Shown: piece by piece, positions 1 to 12,783 of the stretch
How positions within the stretch are numbered: the stretch's first letter is position 1
How the letters are laid out: each line of letters starts with the position of its first letter
IMG/VR virus record: IMGVR_UViG_3300047457_000279
Span: 1-38,431 of that record
Direction: 5' to 3' (one strand)
DNA: 38,431 nucleotides
DNA from: a virus
Translations under genes and position numbers: made by a program
The notes under the pieces: generated by a model
Database searches by the model: none
Seen by the model: only the letters and a program-made list of their open reading frames with translations
Told to the model about the DNA's origin: nothing

Positions 1-73
1 AGATAAGTATGATCCTAAGCCTAATCATAAAGAGTATATTGAGAATAAGTATATGAATGGTAAGCATGAGTAA
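1..73 (+). CDS. C-terminal end of an upstream gene (partial)
   Basis: An open frame enters at the left edge (codons begin at base 2) and stops at TAA 71-73, giving 23 residues that end in NGKHE. The tail is charged and hydrophilic, and no family can be recognised from it. It overlaps the next start by 8 bases, the same stop/start coupling used throughout this arm, which supports it as the real end of a translated gene. Confidence 0.5.
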   Translation, partial: DKYDPKPNHKEYIENKYMNGKHE

Positions 74-332
74 GAAGAAGCGAGAAGAGTCTGAGGTAGT
101 AGTTACTTATAAGAAGAAGCGTGGTAGGCCTGTTGGTATAGAGCCTCTTATTGCTTGGCAGATTGAGTTGGATGGTGAGCATCTTGGTTATTCTACTACT
201 CTGAATGGTGTTAGTAGTATTCTTTATGATATGGGTTGGAAGGTGTGGGCTTATCGTCGGACGCCTGATAAGAAGGGTAGGCCTAAGTTTAAAGCGCGTG
301 TTGTCAGATTTGATAAGGAGAAGGATCTGTAA
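66..332 (+). CDS. small basic protein with AT-hook-like motif
   Basis: This 88-residue protein is of unknown function. Residues about 13-20 read YKKKRGRP, which contains the GRP core flanked by basic residues typical of an AT-hook that binds the minor groove of A/T-rich DNA. The rest (WQIELDGEHLGYS, then a Trp/Tyr-rich stretch) looks like a small folded domain with a basic C-terminus. ATG 66 was chosen because the protein then begins MSKKK; an in-frame ATG at 57 adds three residues, and neither has a good Shine-Dalgarno. It overlaps the upstream stop by 8 bases and ends in TAATG shared with the next gene. A DNA-binding role is inferred only from the short motif. Confidence 0.65.
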   Translation: MSKKKREESEVVVTYKKKRGRPVGIEPLIAWQIELDGEHLGYSTTLNGVSSILYDMGWKVWAYRRTPDKKGRPKFKARVVRFDKEKDL

Positions 333-466
333 TGGCTGTTGCTGGTACTATTAAGAAGGCTAAGTTGGCGGCTGCTAAGGAGCGCCGCTTGGAGCGAGGT
401 AAGAAGAAGATGGAGGCTAAGGCTCTTCGTCAGGCCCGCAAGTTGAAGGAGAAGCAGCGTGTTTAA
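332..466 (+). CDS. very basic 44-residue protein
   Basis: This Lys/Arg/Ala-rich peptide of 44 residues (about 40% Lys+Arg) is predicted to be one long charged helix. Its ATG shares a base with the stop of the upstream gene, and purine-rich AAGGAG lies about 12 bases upstream. It overlaps the next start (GTG 459) by 8 bases. No family is recognised. A nucleic-acid-binding or charge-neutralising role is possible but unproven. Support comes from tight stop/start coupling on both sides and codon use like the neighbours. Confidence 0.5.
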   Translation: MAVAGTIKKAKLAAAKERRLERGKKKMEAKALRQARKLKEKQRV

Positions 467-638
467 GTTTTACACTAAGGGAGACGACCGCTTGTTTGAG
501 GGGGCTATTTTTCTGAATGGTCAGAAGATTGCTACTTTGTATGCTGGTGTGTATCCTGATGGTGAGATTGTTATTCAGGTTGAGGATGGTAGTGGTAGGT
601 TGCAGACTGAGTGGAGTGATTATGAAGAGTCTGATTGA
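459..638 (+). CDS. 59-residue hypothetical protein
   Basis: It begins at GTG 459, preceded by GGAG at a suitable distance, and overlaps both neighbours. The sequence starts MFKFYTKGDD, has alternating hydrophobic/polar residues (GAIFLNGQKIATLYAG, then GEIVIQVEDG) that suggest a small beta-sheet domain, and ends in an acidic tail (EWSDYEESD). No family is recognised. Its position directly before the exonuclease suggests membership of the recombination operon, but no function can be assigned. Confidence 0.5.
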   Translation: MFKFYTKGDDRLFEGAIFLNGQKIATLYAGVYPDGEIVIQVEDGSGRLQTEWSDYEESD

Positions 639-1407
639 TGTTATCAAGCGCGAGACGAATAAGCCTCGTAATGATTATATGCTTCATTTCTCGTCGCACT
701 TGATGAATGATCGTCATACTGTTTTGTATTTTCATCATGGTTATCCTGAGGATTCTTGGGATAAGCCTTGGATGAATACGCTTCCTCTTTTGCAGGGCAC
801 GGCTATTCATGAATATGTGCATACTCTTATGGGTGAGCATCACCAGCCGTATGCTAGTGAGGTTCAGATTATATGTAATGATTTTGAGTATCCTTGGACG
901 GGTACGGTGGATGCTTATACTGAGGATTCTAATCAAAATGTTGTTTTGGTAGATTATAAGACGATTAGTGGTACGTCGTTTGGTTTTCTTGATGGTCCTA
1001 AGCCTGAACATATTATGCAGGTTAGTGCATATTTTCATTATGGTATGCCGGGTGTGGGTAGTGTTGGTATTTTGTATTTGCCGACGAGTCCTGATTATCG
1101 TAGGCGCTGGCCCGAACCAGTGTTTTATGATGTTACTCCTCATCCTAAGGAGGCAATTGAGGGTAGGATTCGTCAGGTTGAGGCTGCTATTGGTTTGTAT
1201 CCTTTTGATTTGCCTGATCCTATGATGGGTACGAAGGAGTGGAAGTATAATAAGAAGGAGAAGCAGTGGGAGCATTGGCTTCGTCCTCATTATTCTAGTA
1301 TGTTTTGTCCTTGGAAGGACCAAGAGGATGATCCGTGTGGTTGTAGTAATCAAAAGCCCGAGTTGTTGGAGGTTAGCGATGAAGCGCCTGAAGCGACTGT
1401 GGAATAG
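622..1407 (+). CDS. RecB/Cas4-like PD-(D/E)XK exonuclease
   Basis: This 261-residue nuclease is predicted to resect double-stranded DNA ends for recombination. It shows the order of motifs expected of RecB/Cas4-type PD-(D/E)XK enzymes: GTAIHEYVH near residue 63, an acidic position around E80, TGTVDAY with D97, and VLVDYKT with D111 and K113, then QVSAYFHY. Near the C-terminus FCPW and PCGC supply three cysteines which, as in Cas4/AddB-like proteins, could help hold an Fe-S cluster, although the fourth ligand is not obvious. ATG 622 has GGAG upstream and overlaps the previous gene by 17 bases. A Rad52-like annealing protein lies two genes downstream, so the pair likely forms an exonuclease/annealase recombination module. 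Confidence 0.75.
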   Translation: MKSLIDVIKRETNKPRNDYMLHFSSHLMNDRHTVLYFHHGYPEDSWDKPWMNTLPLLQGTAIHEYVHTLMGEHHQPYASEVQIICNDFEYPWTGTVDAYTEDSNQNVVLVDYKTISGTSFGFLDGPKPEHIMQVSAYFHYGMPGVGSVGILYLPTSPDYRRRWPEPVFYDVTPHPKEAIEGRIRQVEAAIGLYPFDLPDPMMGTKEWKYNKKEKQWEHWLRPHYSSMFCPWKDQEDDPCGCSNQKPELLEVSDEAPEATVE

Positions 1408-1567
1408 GTATAATCCTCGCCGTACATATATTGAGATGGATGACGCTATGATCGCTTGGATGAGTCAGTTGGGTTATGTAGAGTTGTATCGTGGCGAGTG
1501 GTTCTTTACTGAATCTGGTATTGATGCCCTTAAGGAGGGGATTAAAGTTGCAAACATTCGTTCCTGA
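1379..1567 (+). CDS. 62-residue hypothetical protein, possible winged-helix
   Basis: The gene overlaps the end of the exonuclease by 29 bases and the next gene by 20. A basic N-terminus (MKRLKRLWNRYNPRR) precedes a segment, MAWM-like helix then GYVELYRGEWFFTESGIDALKEG, whose pattern (helix, short hairpin, 'T..G..AL..G') resembles the recognition helix and wing of small winged-helix proteins. This is a shape argument only and no family is recognised. Codon use matches the neighbours. Confidence 0.55.
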   Translation: MKRLKRLWNRYNPRRTYIEMDDAMIAWMSQLGYVELYRGEWFFTESGIDALKEGIKVANIRS

Positions 1568-1997
1568 AAATACATTTTCTAATAGTGTTTTTGTGCTTGA
1601 TCGTCAGCGTCTTGGTAAGCAGCGTGTAGAGACTCTTCAAATTATGAAGGCTCTTGCTGGTCTTAGTAAGGGTTGGATTAATCATCCTGCTACTCGTATG
1701 TGGCGGGGTTATGAATATGCTCTACTTATGTATCAGCATTATACTGTTGAAGAGTGGAAGCGCCGGGGCTACAAAGACACTTGTTGGGATAAAACTAAAG
1801 CCGTATACGACGAGTTTTTTGATACATCTATGTATAAATCGTGTGATATAGGAATGCCACACTGGTGGGGCGATAATCGTGTGCATGATTCACACAAATC
1901 AGCCCTTGTATTTAAGGATCCGGTATGGTATAATACGATCTATCCTGATGTTGTTGGAGAATACAATTATTATTGGCCTGTAGCCAAGGAGGACTAA
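1548..1997 (+). CDS. MSMEG_6728-like (pyrimidine dimer DNA glycosylase-like) protein
   Basis: This 149-residue protein opens LQTFVPENTFSNSVFVLD and continues RLGKQRVETLQIMKAL, GWINHPATRMWRGYE and EEWKRRGYKDT. I recognise that arrangement as the MSMEG_6728 family, annotated as pyrimidine dimer DNA glycosylase-like and related to T4 DenV-type repair proteins; enzymatic activity in the family is little tested. The start is TTG 1548, because AAGGAGGGG ends 7 bases before it and the family begins at 'QTF'. It lies between the exonuclease and the annealing protein, which suggests a DNA repair role. It ends in TAATG shared with the next gene. Confidence 0.7.
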   Translation: MQTFVPENTFSNSVFVLDRQRLGKQRVETLQIMKALAGLSKGWINHPATRMWRGYEYALLMYQHYTVEEWKRRGYKDTCWDKTKAVYDEFFDTSMYKSCDIGMPHWWGDNRVHDSHKSALVFKDPVWYNTIYPDVVGEYNYYWPVAKED

Positions 1998-2626
1998 TGA
2001 TCCCGAAGGATCTAACAGAGAAGTTTCATCCTAGTCTTGTCAAGAAGAATCAGAGCAATCAGGATTATGTAGCCATTGATGGTTATATTAATCGTTTGAA
2101 TGATGTGCTTGGTCATGCTTGGGCGTGGCAGATTAATACTTGGCAGATTACTGATGCTGCTCCGACTAAGAGTGGTAAGCCACAGTATATGGCTGTAGTG
2201 CAGGGTACGCTCACTATTATCTTGTCTGACATTGGTGTTGTTAGTGTTGGAGAGGATGATGAGGATGCCTTTTTGACAACACAGAAGGCTATGATTAGTC
2301 GTGATGGTATCGGAGCGAACATTAATTTTGATCCTGATACTGCCGTCAAGTCTGCTCAGGCTGAGGCGCTTAAGAAGGCGTGCCACCAGTATGGTATTGC
2401 TCTCTACTTGTGGGACGCTGCGGAGCGTGATTTTGTAGAGTTGCAGCGTCAGGCTAGTAAGAATGATGTTGCGTTGAAGCAGTTGGTAGTGGCGTATACG
2501 CAGCGAGCACTAGAGTTGGATCCGGGTACTATGCCTGAGAAGGATCAGATGATGGAGGTCCTTGATATTGAGGATCTTGATATTGAGTCTATTCGTGAGG
2601 CTCTTACTAAGAAGGGAGTATTGTAA
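1997..2626 (+). CDS. Rad52/Rad22-like single-strand annealing protein
   Basis: This 209-residue protein is predicted to anneal complementary single strands during phage recombination. The N-terminal 140 residues carry the Rad52/22 pattern: AIDGYINRLNDVLG, WQINTWQIT, MAVVQGTLTII, then a conserved core around GVVSVGEDD, SRDGIGANI and DTAVKSAQAEALKKAC, followed by YGIALYLW. The last 60 residues are acidic (a direct repeat encodes LDIEDLDIES) and may be the surface that contacts SSB or nuclease. AAGGAGG precedes ATG 1997. It works naturally with the exonuclease two genes upstream. Confidence 0.8.
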   Translation: MIPKDLTEKFHPSLVKKNQSNQDYVAIDGYINRLNDVLGHAWAWQINTWQITDAAPTKSGKPQYMAVVQGTLTIILSDIGVVSVGEDDEDAFLTTQKAMISRDGIGANINFDPDTAVKSAQAEALKKACHQYGIALYLWDAAERDFVELQRQASKNDVALKQLVVAYTQRALELDPGTMPEKDQMMEVLDIEDLDIESIREALTKKGVL

Positions 2627-2913
2627 TGAAGATGTATCAAGTAAGGTTCCTGCTGGAGACTATGGCAGTATTGTTTGAGAAGAAGCGGGATATTATGGCT
2701 CTTCTTGATGATATGTCTAGCCGCATGGAAGAGTTGGAGATGGAGTTGGAGCAGTTGATGACTGACGCTGGCTTTGATGTTGTTAATAAGCAGTTTGGTC
2801 GTGGCTGGTGGGACAGCACCGCGTATGACTCTTCGCTTAAGATTGGCCTTGACGCTGACGGTGCTTGTGACTGTCAGAATTGTAAGCCCGACTCGTCGTA
2901 TAGGATGGACTAA
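2626..2913 (+). CDS. 95-residue hypothetical protein with Cys pair
   Basis: The N-terminal half is a heptad-like helix (RDIMALLDDMSSRMEELEMEL) likely to form a coiled coil. The C-terminal half has GRGWWDSTAYDSS and a CDCQNC cluster that could bind a metal or form disulfides. No family is recognised. It shares TAATG with the gene before and overlaps the dUTPase start by one base, so it is translated as part of the same operon between the annealing protein and dUTPase. Confidence 0.6.
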   Translation: MKMYQVRFLLETMAVLFEKKRDIMALLDDMSSRMEELEMELEQLMTDAGFDVVNKQFGRGWWDSTAYDSSLKIGLDADGACDCQNCKPDSSYRMD

Positions 2914-3353
2914 TGCTAGAGATTCGCTATGAGAATGATGGTGACGTGCTGAATATGCCGTACCGTAAGTATCTACAGGATGGTGCATACGACCTTCATG
3001 CTAATGAGAAGGTAAGCATTCCCGCTAAGGGCCACGCTATCGTAGATACAGGTATTCGTATTCAGATTCCTGTGGGGCACGTCGGCCTCATTTGTAGTCG
3101 TAGTGGACTCGCAGCAGACAAGGGCATCTTCGTACTTAATGCTCCCGGTATTATTGACTCTGGTTATTCTGGGAATATCAAAGTTATCCTTGGTAATCTT
3201 GGTGATGCGGCATATCATATTGGTAATGGTATGCGTATTGCTCAGATTATGATTATTCCTCTATCAGAGTATTATTTTAATCCCGGTAAGGTATGGGGCG
3301 CAGAGCGTGGCGAGAATGGTTTTGGAAGCACAGGACTAGACCCGGAGTTTTAA
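2913..3353 (+). CDS. dut: dUTP diphosphatase (dUTPase)
   Basis: This 146-residue trimeric-type dUTPase hydrolyses dUTP to dUMP and pyrophosphate, keeping uracil out of DNA and feeding dTMP synthesis. All five signature motifs are visible in order: GAYDLHA (I), CSRSGLAADKG (II, phosphate binding), GIIDSGYSGNIKV (III, uracil pocket with catalytic Asp), RIAQIMI (IV) and RGENGFGSTG (V, P-loop-like arm). The length is normal for the family. Start and stop overlap both neighbours by one base. The next gene is the polymerase N-half, placing nucleotide supply beside replication. Confidence 0.93.
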   Translation: MLEIRYENDGDVLNMPYRKYLQDGAYDLHANEKVSIPAKGHAIVDTGIRIQIPVGHVGLICSRSGLAADKGIFVLNAPGIIDSGYSGNIKVILGNLGDAAYHIGNGMRIAQIMIIPLSEYYFNPGKVWGAERGENGFGSTGLDPEF

Positions 3354-4297
3354 TGCCTATAATTGCTATTGATACTGAGACTACAGGCGTAGGATGGCAC
3401 GACGAAGCCTTTATGGTTAGCCTTGCCTATACTAATGTAGATGGTGGCATCACATCGTATGTTTGGGATAAACGTGAGACAGCCCATTGGGACTACGCTC
3501 TAGAAGAGATTGACTATTATCTCATCGGAGCCGATAAGATCATCATGCACAATGCCAAGTTTGACATTCAAAAATTGTGTCGTCTAGGCTTTCCTACTAG
3601 TCTATTTGCAGACAAGTTTGAGGACACACAAGCCATCGCGCATTTAATTGATGAGCATCAGTCTACAAGTCTAAAGTATCTAGCCCGCACAATCCTTAAA
3701 GAAGAGACGGACGAGGACGAGGTGCTGAAGGTCTGGCGGCGTAAGAATAAACTAAAGAAAGAGGATGGTTATGAGCCAATCCCAAACGAAATCCTTGCTC
3801 CTTATGCAGCCAAGGATGCAGAGTTTACTTTGCGTCTATACGAGAGTCTATGGCCTCGCTTGCCCAAGGACTTGCACCCTCTGTACCAGATCGAAAAAGA
3901 CTTGACGCTCGCTTTGCTTCGTATCGAAGCGCAAGGCATGAGCGTTGATCAAAAGTATATTACATATAAGCGTAAGGAGTATGGTGATCGGATTTACAAA
4001 CTTAAGTCTCGTATTGGGGAACTTGCTGGCGAAGACTTCAACCCGCAGTCACACCAGCAGGTCCTTGCGGCCCTCCAAGAGCGAGGATTCGTGGTATCCT
4101 CTACCTCCAAGGACGCGCTCAAAGAAGTCGATGATGAACTAGCACGGCTTATTCTAGAGTTGCGCGAGGCTAACAAGATTAAGTCAACGTATTTTGACGC
4201 TTTGCATGATGAGGCTAAAGATAATATTCTTCATCCTAATTTTCGTCAGCATGGCACAAGGACTGGGCGCATGAGTAGCGGAGCAGCAGAAGCATGA
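3353..4297 (+). CDS. DNA polymerase I, N-terminal half (3'-5' exonuclease and thumb) of a split gene
   Basis: This is the N-terminal 314 residues of a family A polymerase. The proofreading exonuclease looks intact: Exo I D7-T-E9, Exo II HNAKFD with N67 and D71, Exo III YAAKDAE with Y151 and D155. A thumb-like helical region follows (about 180-285), then GTRTGRMSSG near residues 301-310, the start of the palm TGR(L/M)SS motif. It stops at once after GAAEA, just where intact polymerases continue into the NxQNIP motif. That missing part begins at base 5058. ATG 3353 shares a base with the dUTPase stop. The stop TGA overlaps the glycosyltransferase ATG in ATGA, so translation is probably coupled. 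The two halves must associate to polymerise. Confidence 0.88.
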   Translation: MPIIAIDTETTGVGWHDEAFMVSLAYTNVDGGITSYVWDKRETAHWDYALEEIDYYLIGADKIIMHNAKFDIQKLCRLGFPTSLFADKFEDTQAIAHLIDEHQSTSLKYLARTILKEETDEDEVLKVWRRKNKLKKEDGYEPIPNEILAPYAAKDAEFTLRLYESLWPRLPKDLHPLYQIEKDLTLALLRIEAQGMSVDQKYITYKRKEYGDRIYKLKSRIGELAGEDFNPQSHQQVLAALQERGFVVSSTSKDALKEVDDELARLILELREANKIKSTYFDALHDEAKDNILHPNFRQHGTRTGRMSSGAAEA

Positions 4298-5061
4298 TTA
4301 GTGTTATTACACCGACATATGAGACAAATCCCGACATTCTCGCACGAACATGGGCTAGTCTGAAAAACCAGACATACACGGATTGGGAGTGGGTTGTTTG
4401 GGATGACTCGTATACTAGTAGTGTATGGAGTCAGGTATACGGCTTTTGCTCTGATGAGCGGTATCGCATTCGTTTGTTTCGTGGTCACACAAATTCTGGT
4501 ATGATCGGTCAAGTCAAACGATGGGCATTCATGGTCGCACAAGGAGACATTCTCGTAGAATTAGATCATGATGATGAGTTAACATATGATGCTCTCGCAG
4601 AGATTGATAAGGCTTTTAAAGATCCTAGCGTTGGCTTCGTATATTCTAATTGTAGTGAAATCAATCAAGAAGGCGAATCTTGTAGGTATCCTGAGGGTTG
4701 GGCGTTCGGATACGGCTCAGAATACTATGATGAAGAGTATGGTTATTGGGTGATGCGCGCACCAGAAATCAACGCTATAACGATGAGTCATATTGTTAGT
4801 ATGCCTAATCATGTTCGTGCTTGGCGTGCTAGCGTTTATCGTGAACTTAATGGTCATAATCCTCTTCTTCGTGTAGCAGATGATTATGAGTTTATGGTAC
4901 GAACTATGCTACATACTAAGTATCATCATATTGATAAGTTGTTATACTTGCAGCATATTAGCCCATTCACTGCTCAGCGAGTGCATAATGCTGAGATCCA
5001 ACAACGAGTAGCGTTTATCTCGCATAAATATCAAGACCAGATTAAGGCTAAGTTTGCATGA
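4294..5061 (+). CDS. family 2 (GT-A fold) glycosyltransferase inserted in polA
   Basis: This 255-residue glycosyltransferase 2-like protein probably transfers a sugar from a nucleotide donor. It begins ISVITPTYETNP and LKNQTYTDWEWVVWDD, the nucleotide-binding beta/alpha start of GT2 enzymes. The metal-binding DxD is LDHDDE (D91-D94) and a later acidic ADDYEF (about 195-200) fits the catalytic base. There is no signal peptide or membrane segment, so it acts in the cytoplasm. It lies exactly between the two polymerase halves, with 4-base ATGA overlaps at both ends. The acceptor is unknown: modified phage DNA bases, a virion protein or a host glycan are all possible. No gene for a hydroxymethylated base is in the window. 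Confidence 0.85.
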   Translation: MISVITPTYETNPDILARTWASLKNQTYTDWEWVVWDDSYTSSVWSQVYGFCSDERYRIRLFRGHTNSGMIGQVKRWAFMVAQGDILVELDHDDELTYDALAEIDKAFKDPSVGFVYSNCSEINQEGESCRYPEGWAFGYGSEYYDEEYGYWVMRAPEINAITMSHIVSMPNHVRAWRASVYRELNGHNPLLRVADDYEFMVRTMLHTKYHHIDKLLYLQHISPFTAQRVHNAEIQQRVAFISHKYQDQIKAKFA

Positions 5062-5801
5062 ACGTACAGAATATTCCACGAAGCCAGAAGGATGTGAAGC
5101 GTGCATTCGTCCCGAAACTTGACGCATACCTATTCTTTGATTACAAAGCCATTGAAGTCAGGCTTCTCGCATACTACTTGGCCGCAGCAATCGGTGATCA
5201 TTCTCTGGCTACCGAAATCAACAACGGCTCAGACCCCCATGCTATTACCGCTCAAGGACTCTTCCAACAGACAAGCGTCACAGACGAGCAGAGGCAAATA
5301 GGGAAGACACTAAACTTTAGTATTATTTATGGTGGTGGTACGCCTACCATCATGCGCCAACTAGGAGTTCAACACAAAGAGGCAAGGCGCCTACTCAATG
5401 CTTATCATGAGACTAGGCCCGGTATTAAACTTCTTAACCAGAGTATCGCAGAAACATTGGATATGCGTGGTTATATCCAGAGTTTGTATGGCCGCAGACT
5501 GCACGTCCTAGAAGCACACAAGGCGCTGAACGCTTTGATTCAAGGATCAGCCGCCGACCTCATGCGAGACAGCGTAGTTCGTGTCAACAATCATCTATAC
5601 ACCAAATATACTACACATATCGTAAATATCGTGCATGATGAGATCATCCTAGACGCTGACAATAATGAGATTCCAGAACTAGTTAACACAATCCCTACAC
5701 TTATGGGGAATAAAACCGTAGAACAATTCGTTAGTATAGAAACAGATTGTGAGATTAGTTATACTAACTGGGCGAATAAGGAGCCGTATAATGCAGCATA
5801 A
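5058..5801 (+). CDS. DNA polymerase I, C-terminal half (palm and fingers) of a split gene
   Basis: This 247-residue polymerase core resumes directly at NVQNIPRSQ. Motif A is FFDYKAIEVR (D28, E33). Motif B has R79, K83, F87 and Y91 with the same spacing as Klenow R754/K758/F762/Y766. Motif C is IVHDEI (H193, D194, E195). All catalytic residues for nucleotide addition are present, so activity is expected once joined with the N-half. The only extra residue relative to a continuous protein is the initiator Met. The gene starts within the glycosyltransferase stop (ATGA) and overlaps the HNH gene by 11 bases. F87 rather than Tyr at the ribose-selecting position is as in Klenow. Confidence 0.9.
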   Translation: MNVQNIPRSQKDVKRAFVPKLDAYLFFDYKAIEVRLLAYYLAAAIGDHSLATEINNGSDPHAITAQGLFQQTSVTDEQRQIGKTLNFSIIYGGGTPTIMRQLGVQHKEARRLLNAYHETRPGIKLLNQSIAETLDMRGYIQSLYGRRLHVLEAHKALNALIQGSAADLMRDSVVRVNNHLYTKYTTHIVNIVHDEIILDADNNEIPELVNTIPTLMGNKTVEQFVSIETDCEISYTNWANKEPYNAA

Positions 5802-6141
5802 GAAGTGTACGCATTGTCATGAGACGAAGCACGTAGACGAATTCTATCAGTATCGTGGAACACCAGAGAGTATGTGTAGCGAGTGTCGTAAGGCAAAGAC
5901 GCGGACCCGTACTATTATTAATAAGGGTATTGTCGCTGAGGCTAAGTATAAGCCTTGTCATTGTTGCGGCAAGGTGCTAGACCCGGCGCTTATTGATCTT
6001 CACCATCTTGATCCTACTGAGAAGGAGTTGAATGTATCTCGCGCTATTCATGCTCGTTCTCCTGAGCGTCTGCGCGAAGAGATTAGCAAGTGTGTTCCAG
6101 TGTGTCGTCCATGCCATAGGGAGATTCACTATGGCAATTGA
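5791..6141 (+). CDS. HNH endonuclease
   Basis: This 116-residue zinc-containing HNH endonuclease carries two CxxC pairs near the N-terminus (C6/C9, C29/C32). The HNH core then follows: PCHCCG (C56-C59), LIDLHHLDP with H71/H72, and CVPVCRPCHREIH (C105, C108, H109, H113). Family members nick or cleave DNA and are often homing enzymes. AAGGAG lies 7 bases before ATG 5791, inside the end of the polymerase gene. Its place directly after the split polymerase suggests a past or present role in mobility at this locus. A packaging-linked HNH role is less likely this far from the terminase. Confidence 0.85.
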   Translation: MQHKKCTHCHETKHVDEFYQYRGTPESMCSECRKAKTRTRTIINKGIVAEAKYKPCHCCGKVLDPALIDLHHLDPTEKELNVSRAIHARSPERLREEISKCVPVCRPCHREIHYGN

Positions 6142-6367
6142 TGATCCAGTTAATAGTCCTGCCCACTATACTCAGGGCGAGATGGAGGTAATTACCGCCA
6201 TTGAGGGATTGGGACTTGACTATCACCAAGGGAATGTGCTAAAATATGTAGCACGATACCGCTACAAGAATGGTCTAGAGGATCTACGTAAGGCTAAGTG
6301 GTATATTGATCGCCTCATTTACATTGAGGAGCAGCGAGCAATCCAAACACAAAGGAGTTGGGTATGA
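6131..6367 (+). CDS. DUF3310 (SaV-like) protein
   Basis: This 78-residue protein of the DUF3310 family is common in phages beside replication genes and of unresolved function. Visible family marks are VNSPAHYTQGEMEVITAIEG at the start, GNVLKYVARYRYKNG in the middle, then LEDLRKAKWYIDRLI. The start ATG 6131 overlaps the HNH stop by 11 bases and the end overlaps the endolysin start by 4. All of the family's core is present, so it appears intact. Confidence 0.85.
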   Translation: MAIDDPVNSPAHYTQGEMEVITAIEGLGLDYHQGNVLKYVARYRYKNGLEDLRKAKWYIDRLIYIEEQRAIQTQRSWV

Positions 6368-7107
6368 GAATTCTTAAGTTGACTAGTCCTTATATGAAGG
6401 GCAAGGACGTAAAGGACGCGCAGCGTGCGCTTAGCACTATTGGCGCTTGGGTTGGTAAGATTGATGGAGAGTATGGTCCTGTTACTGCGGCTGCTTCTAA
6501 GCAGGCCAAGTGGATGCTCGGGTACCGTCAGAAGGACTGCACGCAGACGTATGGTCCTCTTCTGCATGATTATCTTACTGGTAAGAAGAAGCCTTCTGTT
6601 CTTATGCGTCGCCGCGCAGAGCAGCGCAGGAAGACTAATAGGCCCATGCGTGAGCGTGCTCTTATTGAGAGCATTAAGTGGCTCGGTACAAAGGAGAATC
6701 CTCCGCATTCTAATAAGGTAATGTTCTCTGATTGGTATGGTCTGCGTGGTCCTTGGTGCGCTATGTTTGTTACATATTGTTTTGTGCAGGCTGGCAGCAA
6801 GGCTTTTAGTAAGGGTAATCGCTGGGCGTACTGCCCCTTCATGGTTAATGATGCTCGTGCTCAGCGCAATGGTCTTGTCGTTGTTCCTGTTGATAAGGTA
6901 CAGCCGGGAGACATTGCTATGTTTGATTGGCAGGGCGATGGCACTAGCGATCATGTTGGTATTGTTGAGACGAAGCCGAACAGCAAGGGCGCCTTTAAGT
7001 GTATTGAGGGGAATACTTCTGTTTCGTCTGATAGTGATGGTGGAGAGGTCATGCGGCGTGATCGTAACAAGTCGCAGGTGCAAGTGTTTATTCGTGTCGT
7101 AGAGTAG
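6364..7107 (+). CDS. endolysin: peptidoglycan-binding domain plus CHAP/NlpC-type amidase-peptidase
   Basis: This 247-residue cell-wall hydrolase has an N-terminal PG_binding_1-like repeat (KGKDVKDAQRAL, then GEYGPVTAAASK, about 1-55). A basic linker (about 75-98, MRRRAEQRRK) leads to a CHAP-like domain: GPWCAMFVTYC with nucleophile C132, SDHVGIVE with H197, and IEGN with E215. No signal peptide is seen, so release would depend on the holin encoded on the other arm. ATG 6364 is chosen because AAGGAG ends 7 bases upstream; TTG 6358 is in frame but too close to that site. Its location among replication genes rather than in the late lysis cassette is unusual. Confidence 0.85.
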   Translation: MRILKLTSPYMKGKDVKDAQRALSTIGAWVGKIDGEYGPVTAAASKQAKWMLGYRQKDCTQTYGPLLHDYLTGKKKPSVLMRRRAEQRRKTNRPMRERALIESIKWLGTKENPPHSNKVMFSDWYGLRGPWCAMFVTYCFVQAGSKAFSKGNRWAYCPFMVNDARAQRNGLVVVPVDKVQPGDIAMFDWQGDGTSDHVGIVETKPNSKGAFKCIEGNTSVSSDSDGGEVMRRDRNKSQVQVFIRVVE

Positions 7108-7116
7108 GAGGAAGCA

Positions 7117-8394
7117 TTGATTCTAGAGGCTCATAAGAATTGGTTTGAGAAGGAACGTGGTATTACAGGTGAGACTCTTGAGGCCTTTGGTGTAGAGTCT
7201 ACAAGCGATGAGTGGGTTCGTATGCCGTATGATACTGGTGATCGGACTCGTAAGATGATTGGTCCTCGTGATTTTCGATTCACGAAGGGCGCGAAGGTCT
7301 GCTTGTTTCATCCTCAGCGTATCGTAGAGGACTCGTATGCTGTGCTATGCGAGGGCGAGACAGACACTATGCGGCTCTGGCAAGAAGGCGTGAAGAGCGT
7401 ATACGGGTTGCCGGGATTCCAAGCATTTTCTGATGATGTTCTCGCGCCGCTCCACAAGTATGAGCGTGTCTTTGTCGTTCTTGATAATGACACAGATTAT
7501 AATGTTCGCACAACGGTAGATACTGCTTGGGGTAGGCTTCGTGGTATTCTCGGCTCAAAGGCTAGGCGGATCAGTCTCCCAACTGATGTGAAGGATATTT
7601 GCGAATTCTTTGATTCGTATAGTCTTGATACATTCAGGGATATTACTGCTAAGAGTATTGCTGGTAATTTTCATTATAAGCCACTTGATCTTAGTATTCC
7701 GCCGCCGCAGTACGAGTGGCTTGTGAATGGTTTGATCTGCAAGGGCGATACGACGCTACTTGTTGGCGAACCTAACGTTGGCAAGTCGTGGATCAGCCTT
7801 AGTCTCGCGGTTGCGATGGCTGAGAATCATGATACGTGGCTTGGTCACGAAGTATCTAATCATGGCAAGGTCTTGTATATTGATGAGGAGAATCCGCATG
7901 ATGTTATTTATCATCGGCTTCACCAGTTGGGTGTCAAAAAGTTTGATAATCTACGCTACCTGCACAGGCAGGGCGTCAGGCTTGACCGTAACTTCGACAA
8001 GTTGCTAGACGAGGCTATTACTTTTGAGCCTACTATGATTGTGCTAGACTCGCTAACGCGATTCCATACAAAGGATGAGAATAATGCTGGCGAGATGGCT
8101 GGCCTCTTCAACGACAGTATCAACGTATTGTGTCGTGAAACAGGCGCAGCAGTTATCCTACTGCACCACACTAACAAGTCTGATTCTACCTCATCGTATG
8201 TCCGCACTCGCGGTTCCTCTGATATTGGAGCAGCCGTTGATTGTGGTATTGAGGCCCGCAAGACTGGCGCTAATAAGTTCAACCTAGTCCACTTCAAGAG
8301 TCGCAGAACCCAAGCAGGGGGCTTGACAAAAGTTGAAATCTGTGATACAATTGATGGGCAAGTTGATCTAATCGTATCAACCGACGCATTCTAA
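7117..8394 (+). CDS. Toprim primase fused to RecA-like helicase
   Basis: This 425-residue replication protein is predicted to prime and unwind at the fork. A Toprim domain is visible (AVLCEGETDTMRLW with E79, then VLDNDTD with D123/D125). A RecA/RepA-like ATPase (AAA_25 type) follows: Walker A GEPNVGKSW (about 217-225), IDEEN (256-260), Walker B MIVLDSLTRF (about 307-316) and VILLHHTNKSD. No N-terminal zinc-binding domain is present, unlike T7 gp4, so template recognition must differ. The start is TTG 7117 with AGGAGG five bases upstream; no usable ATG exists nearby. Its partners here are the split polymerase and SSB. Confidence 0.85.
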   Translation: MILEAHKNWFEKERGITGETLEAFGVESTSDEWVRMPYDTGDRTRKMIGPRDFRFTKGAKVCLFHPQRIVEDSYAVLCEGETDTMRLWQEGVKSVYGLPGFQAFSDDVLAPLHKYERVFVVLDNDTDYNVRTTVDTAWGRLRGILGSKARRISLPTDVKDICEFFDSYSLDTFRDITAKSIAGNFHYKPLDLSIPPPQYEWLVNGLICKGDTTLLVGEPNVGKSWISLSLAVAMAENHDTWLGHEVSNHGKVLYIDEENPHDVIYHRLHQLGVKKFDNLRYLHRQGVRLDRNFDKLLDEAITFEPTMIVLDSLTRFHTKDENNAGEMAGLFNDSINVLCRETGAAVILLHHTNKSDSTSSYVRTRGSSDIGAAVDCGIEARKTGANKFNLVHFKSRRTQAGGLTKVEICDTIDGQVDLIVSTDAF

Positions 8395-8405
8395 GGAGGT
8401 GAATT

Positions 8406-8771
8406 ATGGAGACAGACGAGAATATTATTGAGTTTACTGGTGAGTGGCAAGGCGGAGACGATGAGATGACGGATGCTGAGTATGCTTCTGCTATGGAGGA
8501 GTTGCTTAGCGAGGTCGATCAAGAGCGCCTTGGTCGTATTGTCGCTGGTGTGCTAGAGTTCCTTACTGTTCGTGCTATTATTGATGGTCCGTTTTATCTT
8601 CTTACTGATGATGAGCAGGCCATTACGGTGATGGCTGCCAATGAGGACGCTACTGCGCTTCGCGCCGCACTGCCTGAGAACTTTAAGGCGTGGGATGATT
8701 ACGCTGATACTGACCCCGAGTTTATTACTAATCGGGACACGGGGGATGAGCAGGATGAGCCTACCGCCTAA
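8406..8771 (+). CDS. acidic hypothetical protein
   Basis: This 121-residue, strongly acidic protein is not recognised. It has an acidic N-terminus, a central helix-like segment LGRIVAGVLEFLTVRAIIDGPFYLLTDDEQ, and a disordered acidic tail (DTGDEQDEPTA). AAGGAGG with good spacing precedes ATG 8406. The strong negative charge suggests a protein-interaction or DNA-mimic role, but nothing in the sequence proves this. The end overlaps the nuclease gene by 17 bases. Confidence 0.7.
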   Translation: METDENIIEFTGEWQGGDDEMTDAEYASAMEELLSEVDQERLGRIVAGVLEFLTVRAIIDGPFYLLTDDEQAITVMAANEDATALRAALPENFKAWDDYADTDPEFITNRDTGDEQDEPTA

Positions 8772-9081
8772 TCGTAGTAAGCAATGGAAGGATTGGGAGC
8801 GTGAAGTTGCTCGTGATCTGGGAGGAAAAAGAACCGGACCACGAGGATTTGATGTTCCTGATGTAGTAGACTTGCCAGTGGAGTTTGCTCCAGAGTGCAA
8901 GTACCAGAAGCGGCTCTCGCTAAAAGACGCAGACCTTAAGCAAGCAGCGCATAACGCAAGAGATAAGGATTGGGCGCTCTTCTTGCGAGAAGCCCGCTCT
9001 GGTAGAAGGTTCGTAGTTGTACCCTATAAGATGTTCCTCAAAATGTGGGACGAGTATACTAAGGAGAATACAAATGAGTGA
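8755..9081 (+). CDS. PD-(D/E)XK endonuclease, Holliday-junction-resolvase-like
   Basis: This 108-residue nuclease has an N-terminal WKDWEREVARDLGGKR (acidic helix). A catalytic core follows in which D36 (VPDVVDLP), then E48-C-K50 (FAPECKYQ), gives the D...ExK pattern of archaeal Hjc-like and phage resolvase-like enzymes. LKQAAHNARDKDWALFLRE and RFVVVPYKMFLKM resemble the C-terminal part of that fold. A role in resolving branched DNA before packaging fits the family and the recombination genes nearby. ATG 8755 was preferred to ATG 8746, where the GGGGG would abut the start codon. It overlaps the SSB gene by 8 bases. Confidence 0.7.
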   Translation: MSLPPNRSKQWKDWEREVARDLGGKRTGPRGFDVPDVVDLPVEFAPECKYQKRLSLKDADLKQAAHNARDKDWALFLREARSGRRFVVVPYKMFLKMWDEYTKENTNE

Positions 9082-9421
9082 GTATGTTACTATTGCTGGT
9101 ATTGTGCAGTTCGATCCTCGTACCCGTCAGGCTGGCGGCAAGGAGGTTCGTGACGTGGTGATTCGCGCCATTGGTTCTAACAAGAACTTTAGTGTCACGA
9201 TCTGGCCTGAGAAGGCTAGCATCCCCGTCAACAAGGGCGACTTCCTTGTGTGTGACGGTAAGTATTCGCAGAGCGTCGGCCAGAATAAGGCTGGCGAGCA
9301 GGTCACGTATCATAACTTGTCGGCCACCACGATCATTCGTGTCGCTGGCGATGATACTGTTACCGACTCGCAGCCGGTTCCCGTCGGTGCTGCCGCGACC
9401 GGCGACGACTTCCCGTTCTAA
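9074..9421 (+). CDS. ssb: single-stranded DNA-binding protein (SSB)
   Basis: This 115-residue protein has an N-terminal OB-fold-like beta pattern (YVTIAGIVQFDPRTR, VVIRAIGSNKNFSVTIWPE, KGDFLVCDGKYSQ). A short linker leads to the terminal DDFPF, matching the acidic tip (DDxxF) by which bacterial and phage SSBs recruit partner proteins. It is shorter than E. coli SSB because the linker is small. AAGGAG lies upstream of ATG 9074. It likely coats ssDNA for the polymerase, primase-helicase and annealing protein encoded nearby. Confidence 0.82.
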   Translation: MSEYVTIAGIVQFDPRTRQAGGKEVRDVVIRAIGSNKNFSVTIWPEKASIPVNKGDFLVCDGKYSQSVGQNKAGEQVTYHNLSATTIIRVAGDDTVTDSQPVPVGAAATGDDFPF

Positions 9422-9756
9422 TGTGGACCCCCGAAGAGTTCATCGGGGAATACAAGGGAGCGATTGCGTCTGCTGCTTACACATTCCGTAAAGCCGCAGA
9501 ATACGAGGACTTGTATCAGGAGGGCATGATCGCCTTATGGCGGTGTCCGCCTGATACAGTCTTCAAAGTGTGGTATTTAAGACAAGAAGGTAATAATGAG
9601 GATGTAAAAGTGGTAAGTCGTATCGTATATAATCGGATGAAGGATTGGGTTCGATTCACTAAGCGACTGCGACACAATCACGCTGTAAGTTATGAGGAGA
9701 TCCTAGATGGAATATACGAAGACAGTAGTAGAGAATCTACTGAGGAACTATTATAG
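9421..9756 (+). CDS. sigma-factor region 2-like protein (half of a split sigma)
   Basis: This 111-residue protein resembles sigma-70 region 2. YEDLYQEGMIALWRCP (about 28-43) matches the region 2.1-2.2 core (DLxQEGxIGL) that binds the RNA polymerase beta' clamp. VSRIVYNRMKDWVRFTKRLRHNHAVSYEEIL (in two stretches, about 65-95) resembles region 2.3-2.4, which melts and reads the -10 element. It ends soon after with no region 4. The next gene, overlapping by 50 bases in another frame, supplies a region 4-like domain. The start shares a base with the SSB stop. The two proteins could together direct host RNA polymerase to phage promoters. Confidence 0.68.
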   Translation: MWTPEEFIGEYKGAIASAAYTFRKAAEYEDLYQEGMIALWRCPPDTVFKVWYLRQEGNNEDVKVVSRIVYNRMKDWVRFTKRLRHNHAVSYEEILDGIYEDSSRESTEELL

Positions 9757-10003
9757 TCTACAGCAACACCCTGATTCCACCTTCTCATTTTATTATCTTG
9801 ACTTGGTGTATGGTTTGAAGGAGTTGTATAAGCAGAATAGTGTATTATATTACACGCTTGTTAATGTGTTTATTAGTGGTATGCCTATTCAGGATCAAGC
9901 GTATAATGATGGTGTCACTACCCGCATGGTTAATTATAGGTTGAATGATGGGTTAGAGGCACTAACTAATCTTATGAATGGAGTTACAGTTGAAGAGAGT
10001 TGA
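9707..10003 (+). CDS. sigma-factor region 4-like helix-turn-helix protein (other half of split sigma)
   Basis: In this 98-residue protein residues about 30-92 resemble sigma-70 region 4: YLDLVYGLKELYKQ, then LVNVFISGMPIQDQAYNDGV followed by VNYRLNDGLEALTNLM. The order is helix, GxxxxDxA turn, recognition helix and a terminal 'RLxxGLxxL' helix, as in ECF sigma factors. It has its own GAGGAG seven bases before ATG 9707, inside the region 2-like gene. Separate translation therefore looks likely rather than a sequencing frameshift. An autonomous HTH regulator is the alternative. Confidence 0.62.
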   Translation: MEYTKTVVENLLRNYYSLQQHPDSTFSFYYLDLVYGLKELYKQNSVLYYTLVNVFISGMPIQDQAYNDGVTTRMVNYRLNDGLEALTNLMNGVTVEES

Positions 10004-10760
10004 TACTAAAGATAAGAGTCGTTTTGAGTTTGGTCTTGATAAGCCTTTGGAGTTGAAGGGCGACTGGGCTGTTACGGCTGATTGGCACGTACCCTTGTAT
10101 GATGCGGAGTTGGTAAACGAGTTTCTTGATGAGGCTAGTGATTACGCTAATCTTCTCATTGCTGGTGATTTTCTGAATGGTGACTCGCTTAGTCAGTATT
10201 ACCCTAAGCAGAAGAGTGCTGGCATTGAGAAGGAGGTTGCTGAGGCTAAGGCCCTCATGGAGATTCTTTGTTCTAACTTTAAGCATATTGTGTTTCTCAT
10301 GGGCAATCATGATTATCGTTACACGAAGGCTGCGGAGTACCGCGAGTCTTTTGTAGAATCTATGACGGAGGTGTTTAAGGATGTTCCTCGTCACGGCTGC
10401 AAGTTGGTGTTTAGCAATCTTGATCATTGCTATATCACAAGCAGCAAAGAGCGTTATTTCATTGCTCACCCTAGCACGTACTCCAAGAGTCCGCTGAATA
10501 ATCCTCTTGCTATTGCAGAGATTAAGAAGTGTCACGTCTTGACTGCTCATACGCATCATTGTGCTATGGGTTGGGATCCTAGTGGCGAGTATATTGTTGG
10601 AGAGTTGGGTGGGTTCTTTAATATTCCTCAGACGGAGTATTTGCAAGGCACGACGGCGTACCCTAACTGGTGTAATGGTTACTGGTTTATTACTAAGGGC
10701 AGGCCGTATATGATTAGTCATGGTTCTCGTGGTTTGCGGTGTGTAAGTAACGGAAAGTAA
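9990..10760 (+). CDS. calcineurin-like metallophosphoesterase
   Basis: This 256-residue cytoplasmic enzyme of the calcineurin-like fold shows all metal-binding blocks: ADWHVP (DxH), IAGDFLNGD (GDx), MGNHDYR (GNHD), then FIAHP and TAHTHH (GHxH-like). Members hydrolyse phosphomono- or diesters in nucleotides or DNA, and the substrate here is unknown. TTG 9990 is preferred because GGAG lies six bases upstream, whereas in-frame ATG 9978 has no Shine-Dalgarno. The gene overlaps the upstream one by 14 bases. It is followed directly by a tRNA gene. A role in end processing or nucleotide recycling would fit the neighbourhood. Confidence 0.82.
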   Translation: MKRVDTKDKSRFEFGLDKPLELKGDWAVTADWHVPLYDAELVNEFLDEASDYANLLIAGDFLNGDSLSQYYPKQKSAGIEKEVAEAKALMEILCSNFKHIVFLMGNHDYRYTKAAEYRESFVESMTEVFKDVPRHGCKLVFSNLDHCYITSSKERYFIAHPSTYSKSPLNNPLAIAEIKKCHVLTAHTHHCAMGWDPSGEYIVGELGGFFNIPQTEYLQGTTAYPNWCNGYWFITKGRPYMISHGSRGLRCVSNGK

Positions 10761-10769
10761 AAATCGAAT

Positions 10770-10851
10770 GGGGCTGTGGCGGAATTGGTATACGCAGCGG
10801 ACTTAAAATCCGTAGCCTCCGGGCGTGAGGGTTCGACTCCCTCCAGCCCTA
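10770..10851 (+). tRNA. tRNA-Leu (anticodon UAA)
   Basis: A full cloverleaf can be folded by eye. The acceptor GGGGCTG pairs with CAGCCCT (one G-U at the tip), followed by discriminator A. There is a D arm, an anticodon stem GCGGA/TCCGT around loop CTTAAAA (anticodon TAA), a long class II variable arm typical of leucine, and a T arm GAGGG-TTCGACT-CCCTC. CCA is not encoded. It reads UUA and, by wobble, UUG. It lies in the 106-base gap between the metallophosphoesterase and reductase genes. Confidence 0.95.
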
Positions 10852-10866
10852 TTAGAAAGGAGAAAG

Positions 10867-12783
10867 ATGAGTCTACCTACTGATTATCAGACGTTTATCG
10901 CAACGTCTCGTTATGCGCGTTGGCTTGATGATGAGAAGCGACGCGAGTATTGGCCTGAGACAGTCAGCCGGTACGTAGAGTATATGGATCGGCACCTCCG
11001 ATCCAAGCATAATTATAAGATGGATGCTACGCTCAAGGCAGAGTTGCTTGACGCCATCATTAACCTAGAGGTCATGCCTAGTATGCGTGCCCTTATGACC
11101 GCTGGTCCCGCATTGGAGAGGGAGAATGTCGCTGGATATAATTGTTCGTATACTCCTATTAATCATCCTCGCTGCTTTGATGAAATTCTATATATCCTAA
11201 TGAATGGTGTTGGGGTTGGCTTCTCTGTAGAGCGCGACGATATTAGCCAATTGCCTATTGTTAATGAGCACTTTGAGAAGAGTGATACGATTATCAAGGT
11301 TGGCGATTCTAAGGCTGGTTGGGCCAAGGCTCTTCGTGAACTAATCGCTATGCTATATGCGGGTCAGGTTCCTTCGTGGGACGTGAGTCAAGTACGGCCC
11401 GCTGGTTCTCGCCTCAAGACTTTTGGTGGGCGAGCGTCTGGTCCTGCACCCCTTGAAGACTTGTTTAAGTTTACTGTTAATATTTTTCAGAATGCTGCTG
11501 GCCGCAAGTTGTACGCCTTGGAGTGTCATGATCTTGTATGTAAAATCGCTGAAGTGGTCGTTGTTGGTGGGGTACGCCGCTCCGCCCTCATCTCGCTATC
11601 AAACCTGTCTGATGGACGGATGCGCAATGCGAAGTCTGGGGAATGGTGGACTGACAATCCTCAACGTGCACTTGCTAATAATTCCGTCGCTTACTCGGAG
11701 ACGCCGGGTATGGATGCGTTTATGGAAGAGTGGTTGAGTCTCTATCAGTCTAAGAGTGGTGAGCGTGGTATCTTCAATCGGCAAGCCGCACAAGCACAAG
11801 CCGCTAAGAATGGTAGAAGGGAGTACGACCATCCGTTTGGTACTAATCCATGCTCTGAGATTATTCTTCGCCCGCACCAGTTTTGCAATCTTACTGAGGT
11901 TGTGGTTCGCGCATCAGATGATTGGCATTCACTTAAGCGTAAGGTTCGGTTGGCTACAATCCTTGGGACCTTCCAAGCGACTCTTACGGATTTCAAGTAT
12001 TTGCGTAAGGTGTGGAAGCAGAACACGGAAGAGGAGCGTCTGCTCGGCGTGTCGCTCACGGGTATCTTTGATAGTAAAATCCTGACCGGCAAGAGCGCGT
12101 ATGTTGTTGGTCCTAATCTGCGAGAGATGCGTCACGAGGCGGTGAGAACTAATGCGAAGTATGCTGCTGCGATTGGTATTCCTGTGTCTACTGCCATTAC
12201 TTGTGTCAAGCCTAGTGGTACTGTCTCTCAATTGGTGGACTCCGCTTCCGGTATTCATCCTAGGTATAGTGAATATTATATTCGTCGTGTGCGTGGTGAT
12301 GTCAAGGACCCTTTGACACAATTCCTTATGGATGCTGGTATTCCTCACGAGCCTGATGTGATGAACCCGGATAATATGATGGTCTTCTCGTTCCCACAGA
12401 AGTCTCCTACGACGTATAAGAATGAGTTGACTGCTCTTGAGCATTTGGAGTTGTGGCTCGCGTATCAGGAGAATTGGTGCGAACATAAGCCTAGTATCAC
12501 TGTTAGCGTCGCTGAGGACGAGTGGATGAAGGTTGGGGCTTGGGTGTATGATCATTTTGATCAGGTGAGTGGTATTAGTTTCTTGCCTAAGAGTGATCAT
12601 ACGTATCGTCAGGCGCCATATGAGGCTATTACTAAGGAGGAGTATGAGGCGCTTGTTAAGGAGAGTCCGAAGAGTATTGACTGGGCTGCTTTGGCAGACT
12701 ATGAGTTAGAGGATACTACTGAGTCTAGTCAGACGTTTGCTTGTACGAGCGATGCGTGTGAGGTTGTGGATATTAAGGGATAA
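10867..12783 (+). CDS. nrdJ: adenosylcobalamin-dependent ribonucleoside-triphosphate reductase (class II, monomeric)
   Basis: This 638-residue class II reductase makes deoxynucleotides using B12. Key residues match Lactobacillus leichmannii RTPR: N327-P-C329-S-E331 (active-site Asn, thiyl Cys and Glu), C340 eleven residues after the thiyl Cys, and C93 in GYNCSY as the redox pair. C626 and C631 near the C-terminus are five apart, like the shuttle cysteines C731/C736. It is about 100 residues shorter than the L. leichmannii enzyme, so part of an allosteric insertion may be missing. ATG 10867 has AAGGAG upstream; an in-frame GTG at 10825 lies inside the tRNA and is rejected. It is the last gene before the convergent terminator. 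Confidence 0.93.
   Translation: MSLPTDYQTFIATSRYARWLDDEKRREYWPETVSRYVEYMDRHLRSKHNYKMDATLKAELLDAIINLEVMPSMRALMTAGPALERENVAGYNCSYTPINHPRCFDEILYILMNGVGVGFSVERDDISQLPIVNEHFEKSDTIIKVGDSKAGWAKALRELIAMLYAGQVPSWDVSQVRPAGSRLKTFGGRASGPAPLEDLFKFTVNIFQNAAGRKLYALECHDLVCKIAEVVVVGGVRRSALISLSNLSDGRMRNAKSGEWWTDNPQRALANNSVAYSETPGMDAFMEEWLSLYQSKSGERGIFNRQAAQAQAAKNGRREYDHPFGTNPCSEIILRPHQFCNLTEVVVRASDDWHSLKRKVRLATILGTFQATLTDFKYLRKVWKQNTEEERLLGVSLTGIFDSKILTGKSAYVVGPNLREMRHEAVRTNAKYAAAIGIPVSTAITCVKPSGTVSQLVDSASGIHPRYSEYYIRRVRGDVKDPLTQFLMDAGIPHEPDVMNPDNMMVFSFPQKSPTTYKNELTALEHLELWLAYQENWCEHKPSITVSVAEDEWMKVGAWVYDHFDQVSGISFLPKSDHTYRQAPYEAITKEEYEALVKESPKSIDWAALADYELEDTTESSQTFACTSDACEVVDIKG

Follow-up and report, generated by a model that had tools for sequence, protein, structure and literature searches.

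Phage replication enzymes that are encoded in pieces have been described before: gp43 is split in the T4-like Aeromonas phages 25 and 44RR, and nrdA is split in Aeh1 (PMC2988022). The halves of phage 25 gp43 co-purify with polymerase activity, and the split NrdA of Aeh1 keeps its function (PMC2988022). Among family A DNA polymerases (PolA), the enzyme of the Methylophilales phages MEP401 and MEP402 is encoded in two open reading frames (ORFs) with a small ORF between them, one holding the exonuclease and the N-terminal polymerase portion and the other the C-terminal polymerase portion (PMC10580990, OP830906). The polA genes of SPO1, SP82, Bastille, and Pf-WMP3 carry group I introns with HNH endonucleases (I-HmuI, I-HmuII, I-BasI, and I-PfoP3I, respectively), and although these phages are widely divergent, the four introns interrupt their polymerase genes at one identical point (PMC3428280), which is before the Asn675 codon. 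The same study reports, as data not shown, that exon 1 of Pf-WMP3 by itself has exonuclease activity but does not synthesize DNA (PMC3428280). Nucleases near polymerase genes are also known from HEG islands, where they mark recombination boundaries (PMC10448857).

Here we describe a locus in a 38,431-nucleotide viral DNA (IMG/VR record IMGVR_UViG_3300047457_000279, called the window below), in which two genes, PolA-N and PolA-C, encode a family A polymerase and are separated by a slot that holds a glycosyltransferase (GT) gene. Like split gp43 and nrdA, this is a replication enzyme in pieces, but those proteins are a family B polymerase (PolB) and a ribonucleotide reductase rather than a PolA, and an endonuclease or an untranslated spacer lies between their halves, whereas the window and its relatives have an exchangeable set of cargo genes. 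The locus shares its two-ORF form and its division of domains with MEP401 and MEP402, but the MEP401 polymerase is interrupted behind QNF and immediately ahead of motif A, 35 alignment columns downstream of the joint in the window, and the window polymerase is not broken there; no GT or HNH cargo is noted for MEP401, and its lineage is unrelated to that of the window at this level. The insertion point of the polA introns is identical to the break in the window, but those genes are spliced to give one polypeptide, whereas the window has no detectable intron, two proteins, and other cargo. As at the exchange boundaries of HEG islands, trees of the two parts conflict across the slot, but the cargo in the window slot is a GT and not an endonuclease. 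A split PolA is thus already known at another site (MEP401, PMC10580990). The open-access literature searched contained no description of a PolA that is broken at the intron site, nor of one with a slot of changing cargo at its break.

Architecture of the split polymerase and its relatives

A reading made earlier from the sequence alone (the sequence-only reading) had described a two-gene family A polymerase with a complete GT2-like gene in between, and both the ORF coordinates and the Pfam matches agree with that description (Table 1). PolA-N contains PF01612 (E 1e-16) and PF00476 profile positions 4 to 123, while PolA-C contains PF00476 profile positions 127 to 380 (E 2e-48), with approximately three profile positions missing at the break. 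The exonuclease and an R668-like arginine are in PolA-N, and N675, Q677, and motifs A to C are in PolA-C. Exo I-III, motifs A, B, and C, and the Pol I fold are all present in this family A polymerase. In an alignment to Klenow, PolA-N reaches approximately residue 672 and PolA-C takes up the sequence at Asn675 (residue numbers from the chain offset and established knowledge), a position in keeping with the earlier proposal that the two subunits would have to meet inside the palm.

Table 1. Features of the split polymerase locus, in positions of the window
Feature	Position	Strand	Description
PolA-N	3353..4297	+	314 aa; 3'-5' exonuclease, thumb, first palm strand; C-terminus ..HGTRTGRMSSGAAEA*
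ATGA overlap, PolA-N stop/GT start	4294..4297	+	left edge of the slot; seen in sequence
GT2-family glycosyltransferase	4294..5061	+	255 aa; optional slot cargo; PF00535 E 1e-19
ATGA overlap, GT stop/PolA-C start	5058..5061	+	next codon AAC = exon 2 codon 1 in intron-bearing polA genes
PolA-C	5058..5801	+	247 aa; remaining palm and fingers; N-terminus MNVQNIP, residue 2 = Asn675 (E. coli Pol I)
Free-standing HNH endonuclease	5791..6141	+	directly 3' of PolA-C; phrog_2255 E 1.5e-22 (scan start 5782, 9 nt upstream)

Protein searches identified 39 further IMG/VR contigs with the same polymerase family, at 62 to 86% identity. Both sides of the PolA junction are legible in 38 contigs including the window, and the break is at the same codon in all 38. 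In these relatives PolA-N ends with TGRMSS followed by 5 or 6 residues and a stop, and PolA-C consists of a start codon and then NVQNIP, with one contig (L005) deviating. A deeper member of the family, L355 (IMGVR_UViG_3300045391_001664), is 49% identical in the N part and 50% in the C part and is broken at the same place. In four contigs (L015, L016, L019, and L025), PolA-N is joined straight to PolA-C by a 4-nt overlap, which is GTGA in L015 and ATGA in the others. The metagenome search for adjacent PolA-N, GT2, and PolA-C genes that the sequence-only reading had suggested recovered the order found in the window, with the same 760-nt spacing, in 18 of the 38 junction-readable contigs (window included), or 12 of 28 once near-identical contigs were removed. 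Because order and spacing recur in this way, the arrangement is not an assembly artefact; such an artefact had been named as fatal to that reading.

Intact polymerases were met only at ≤36% identity to the split clade. The C part lies inside a longer single ORF in every non-clade relative listed at this distance, L226 and L227 included, and a second set of distant PolA relatives is mostly intact, with a few members that have other interruptions. In Jasmine, a cultured actinobacterial podovirus, the annotation gives PolA as a single gene, and its alignment runs through the joint without a break. Among the loci listed by a scan for other M-N-x-Q-N starts (at least 80), most are intact polymerases with a Met before the Asn, and the scan also yielded L355 and a further phage, L400. 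When isolate relatives were sought, positions 1 to 12000 of the window had no megablast match among 50,697 phage records, and the best PolA protein matches were at approximately 33% identity; a search of GTDB genome contigs for a host copy gave a single 25% match. In five other distant relatives (L183, L172, L173, L169, and L184) the N and C matches fall in separate ORFs, and introns or splits elsewhere are possible in these genes.

Contents of the slot

The slot varies among the 38 junction-readable contigs. It holds the GT alone in 18, the GT with small ORFs in 11 (one of which also has an HNH gene), and an ORF of approximately 60 aa alone in 5, while the remaining 4 have only the 4-nt overlap. 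Thus, the GT is present in 29 of 38 contigs and missing from 9. The order within the slot is constant, [66- or 75-aa ORF]-GT-[60-aa ORF]-[HNH]-PolA-C, and GT presence switches at least 6 times on the N tree and at least 7 times on the C tree. Nine GT-less records were searched whole, and none has the GT elsewhere in the genome. L355 is also without the GT and has other ORFs in its place; its slot (reverse strand, 617-1172) contains two uncharacterized ORFs, one of 46 and one of 117 aa. The split is therefore fixed while the GT is optional, and the sequence-only account of a polymerase split by a glycosyltransferase gene is at best incomplete in view of this comparison, in which every junction-readable contig and L355 are split whether the GT is there, accompanied, replaced, or missing. 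From this variation in occupancy we infer that the GT is a replaceable passenger without a role in the polymerase.

The passenger itself belongs to the GT2 family, with a PF00535 domain and with DD and DxDD metal-binding residues that show no variation among the 30 copies long enough to include them. Relatives of the gene outside the split clade sit among tail and fibre-like genes, so it is possible that the GT glycosylates a virion or host target. In other environmental phages, GT relatives at 60 to 68% (loci L048-L109) are widespread beside tail, collagen-like fibre, or appendage genes. A split PolA was also sought in the contigs that carry a tail-module GT, and the candidates were rejected as weak, single-ORF matches. 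Among the MEP401-type relatives (L269-L348), polA is split in 76 of 76 that could be assessed, with a gap of -17 to 635 nt in those sampled, and these phages may have a cargo slot of their own.

Origin of the break

The break falls directly before the Asn675 codon, at the very site that a group I intron with an HNH gene occupies in SPO1, in Pf-WMP3, and in L400 (IMGVR_UViG_3300042868_001501, an unrelated phage). The intron positions are ..GRLSSNEP^NAQQFP in SPO1 gene 31 (FJ230960), ..RLSSSKP^NIQQIP in Pf-WMP3 (EF537008), and ..SRLSSSDP^NLQNLP in L400, and the first codon after the intron in intron-bearing polA genes, that of Asn675, is codon 2 of PolA-C in the window. The intron-like sequence of L400 matches RF00028 with E 6.6e-6 and 31 bits, which is under the Rfam gathering threshold of 50, and an HNH gene is also present. 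In L400, the group I intron-like stretch with its HNH gene occupies positions 3136-3864 of the contig, within polA, and an ATG at its 3' end supplies the start codon of exon 2.

An HNH gene is found inside the slot in L005 alone among the 38 contigs, where it is free-standing and lies exactly between the ATG and the AAC. A sister contig, L116 (N 98% and C 93% identical), is without it, and the L005 gene is a single, probably recent, insertion. PolA-C of L005 has no ATG at the junction, and in-frame ATG, TTG, and GTG codons lie upstream. A relationship between the L005 HNH and I-HmuI was not detectable. On the other side of PolA-C, an HNH gene follows directly in 8 of 40 contigs (the window and 7 others), and in the others a nucleotide-kinase/MazG-like gene takes that place. 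The HNH of the window and the slot HNH of L005 are distant relatives (29% over 69 aa, E 6e-6). Rfam gave no intron in the window slot at gathering thresholds and no match at E≤1 in window positions 4200-6200 or L005 positions 3300-5000, and the window's own slot has no HNH or intron remnant.

We favor, with a probability of roughly 0.7, an old endonuclease- or intron-driven fission at the intron/HNH site that became fixed as a two-subunit PolA, the gap being now a cargo slot and the GT its passenger. Most likely, an HNH gene, either on its own or within an intron whose splicing was subsequently lost, would have inserted before the Asn675 codon and would afterwards have been lost, leaving polA in two genes. 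The harmless gap would then have turned into a cargo slot, in the window filled by the GT2 glycosyltransferase. We infer this founding role of an HNH gene or HNH-bearing intron from the identity of the site, since the window slot is without a remnant and the L005 HNH is single and probably recent. The sequence-only reading had rightly pointed to T4-like phages, in which polymerase gene fission involves homing endonucleases, but it had set the endonuclease route aside for this locus; the position of the split at a group I intron/HNH homing site makes that route the better-supported origin.

In genes-in-pieces created by homing endonucleases, of which Aeh1 nrdA is the type, catalytic residues are kept in both pieces, the breakpoint is at a known endonuclease or intron site, and a homing endonuclease lies between the pieces. 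The window polymerase keeps its catalytic residues in both pieces and is broken at such a site (that of SPO1, Pf-WMP3, and L400), but its slot holds a GT, and an HNH gene is there only in L005 of 38 contigs. For this reason we do not file it as a member of the Aeh1 nrdA type, though it works like one.

It is also conceivable, though unlikely, that the split arose without mobile elements, through a simple stop/start mutation in a surface loop that tolerates a break; the agreement with the intron site would then reflect only this conserved, tolerant position. An ATGA overlap is all that the cargo-less members have at the joint, so it suffices for a split, and MEP401-type phages have their break in a different loop, one that immediately precedes motif A. 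Such a mutation would, however, have to coincide to the codon with the four reported introns, the L400 site, and the HNH insertion of L005, and it would not account for the HNH genes on the 3' side of PolA-C in 8 of 40 contigs.

We regard as improbable the idea that the fission was caused by the GT gene entering a previously intact polA, with the GT-less relatives arising by later deletion. No other gene occurs in the slot as often as the GT (29 of 38), and its relatives in the tail modules of other phages suggest a mobile gene; however, the deeper split member L355 has other cargo, GT presence has changed at least 6 to 7 times, and a GT has no means of targeting the exact intron/HNH site.

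Even less probable is a polymerase that is not truly split, its halves being joined by an undetected intron, intein, ribosomal frameshift, or translational bypass. Group I introns do occur at this very position in other phages, and in the four relatives whose halves overlap by 4 nt a -1 shift would be enough to yield a single protein. On the other side, the window and L005 slots have no Rfam match at E≤1, the slot is full of overlapping ORFs whose start/stop overlaps are conserved, cargo-less members have nothing between the halves to splice, and the 768-nt cargo is not crossable by a frameshift. No intron core was found of the kind that defines a group I intron-interrupted polA, and four relatives have no intervening sequence at all. 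A split intein was likewise rejected: Pfam finds no intein domain in either half, and the ends run only 5 and 1 residues past conserved polymerase sequence.

Function, exchange, and genome surroundings

Exo I-III, the R668-like arginine, N675/Q677/N678, and motifs A, B, and C show no substitution at any position that the alignment of 38 N and 40 C sequences includes. The sequence-only reading had reported all Exo I-III and motif A-C residues as present and had counted their loss in relatives as a refutation, and no such loss was seen. Median pairwise dN/dS, from a simple Nei-Gojobori count over pairs with dS <1.5, is 0.17 for the N part, 0.19 for the GT, and 0.13 for the C part, so both polymerase halves are under purifying selection, as had been supposed from the window. 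In ten records of 38 to 46 kb, which are fragments of viral contigs, PF00476 occurs only as two pieces and PF00136 (PolB) does not occur; in these records of uncultured phages the split PolA is thus the only recognisable DNA polymerase. With a sole PolA in pieces, no PolB, and low dN/dS, the two genes most likely encode, as judged from sequence, the functional polymerase with which the phage replicates. A decayed polymerase, with one or both halves non-functional and the phage relying on the host replicase, has nothing for it except the split itself and is scarcely credible given the invariant catalytic residues, the low dN/dS in both halves, and the ten records without another PolA or PolB gene.

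When the two halves are modelled separately with AlphaFold2 (AF2), each resembles a different, complementary portion of Pol I-type structures. The PolA-N model (pLDDT 84) matches phiVC8 DpoZ with Z 20.0 and Klenow 348-688 with Z 17.6, and the PolA-C model (pLDDT 77) matches Bst Pol I with Z 22.0. pLDDT falls below 50 at the broken ends (PolA-N residues 298-314 and PolA-C residues 1-15), as would be expected in the models of ends that need one another in order to fold, although the 11-sequence alignments could also contribute. PolA-N and PolA-C would be translated in a coupled manner through the ATGA overlaps and would then dock within the palm, rebuilding one active site.

The two parts do not always share a history. 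L132 and L129 are 99% identical in the C part and 84% in the N part, and L118 and L130 are 76% identical in N and 61% in C. The C-tree clade L166+L130+L137+L032 is rejected by the N data (AU p 0.0005), and the grouping L118+L130 is rejected by the C data (p 0.0003), both groupings having been picked after seeing the data. L114+L134 as a C clade is not rejected (p 0.20), and not all N/C differences are supported recombination. From these comparisons, PolA subunits seem to have been exchanged between phages. With slightly less than even confidence, we propose that the clade has a stable, obligate two-subunit PolA and that the joint serves as an open slot for cassettes, with cargo and whole halves swapped as modules between lineages.

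If the break did arise by endonuclease- or intron-driven fission, this locus would represent an end point of selfish-element insertion, in which the classic I-HmuI/group I intron position became a break through the active-site domain of an essential replication enzyme, and the break was fixed across a whole phage clade and then reused to carry accessory genes. The slot contents (nothing, a small ORF, the GT, an HNH gene, and combinations of these) form a natural series for testing the steps of gene fission. A natural split polymerase with R668 and the metal-binding aspartates in different subunits could serve the study or engineering of polymerase assembly. The locus also cautions that gene annotation may mistake phage polA genes for fragments.

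Protein matches in the window include a P22-like portal, a major head protein, a terminase, a class II ribonucleotide reductase, and a helicase-primase, and further matches are to a dUTPase, a Holliday junction resolvase, and a single-strand annealing protein. The nearest known capsid and portal are those of Jasmine. Judged by these protein matches, the window probably derives from a podovirus that has phages of actinobacteria among its relatives, and its hosts may be actinobacteria. A 1871-aa ORF on the minus strand (14385-20000) has no Pfam match. The replication module also encodes, at 1491-1997, a protein with a pyrimidine dimer DNA glycosylase-like domain (PF03013, E 1e-21), and a tRNA-Leu (taa) at 10769-10852 is flanked by metallophosphoesterase and ribonucleotide reductase genes.
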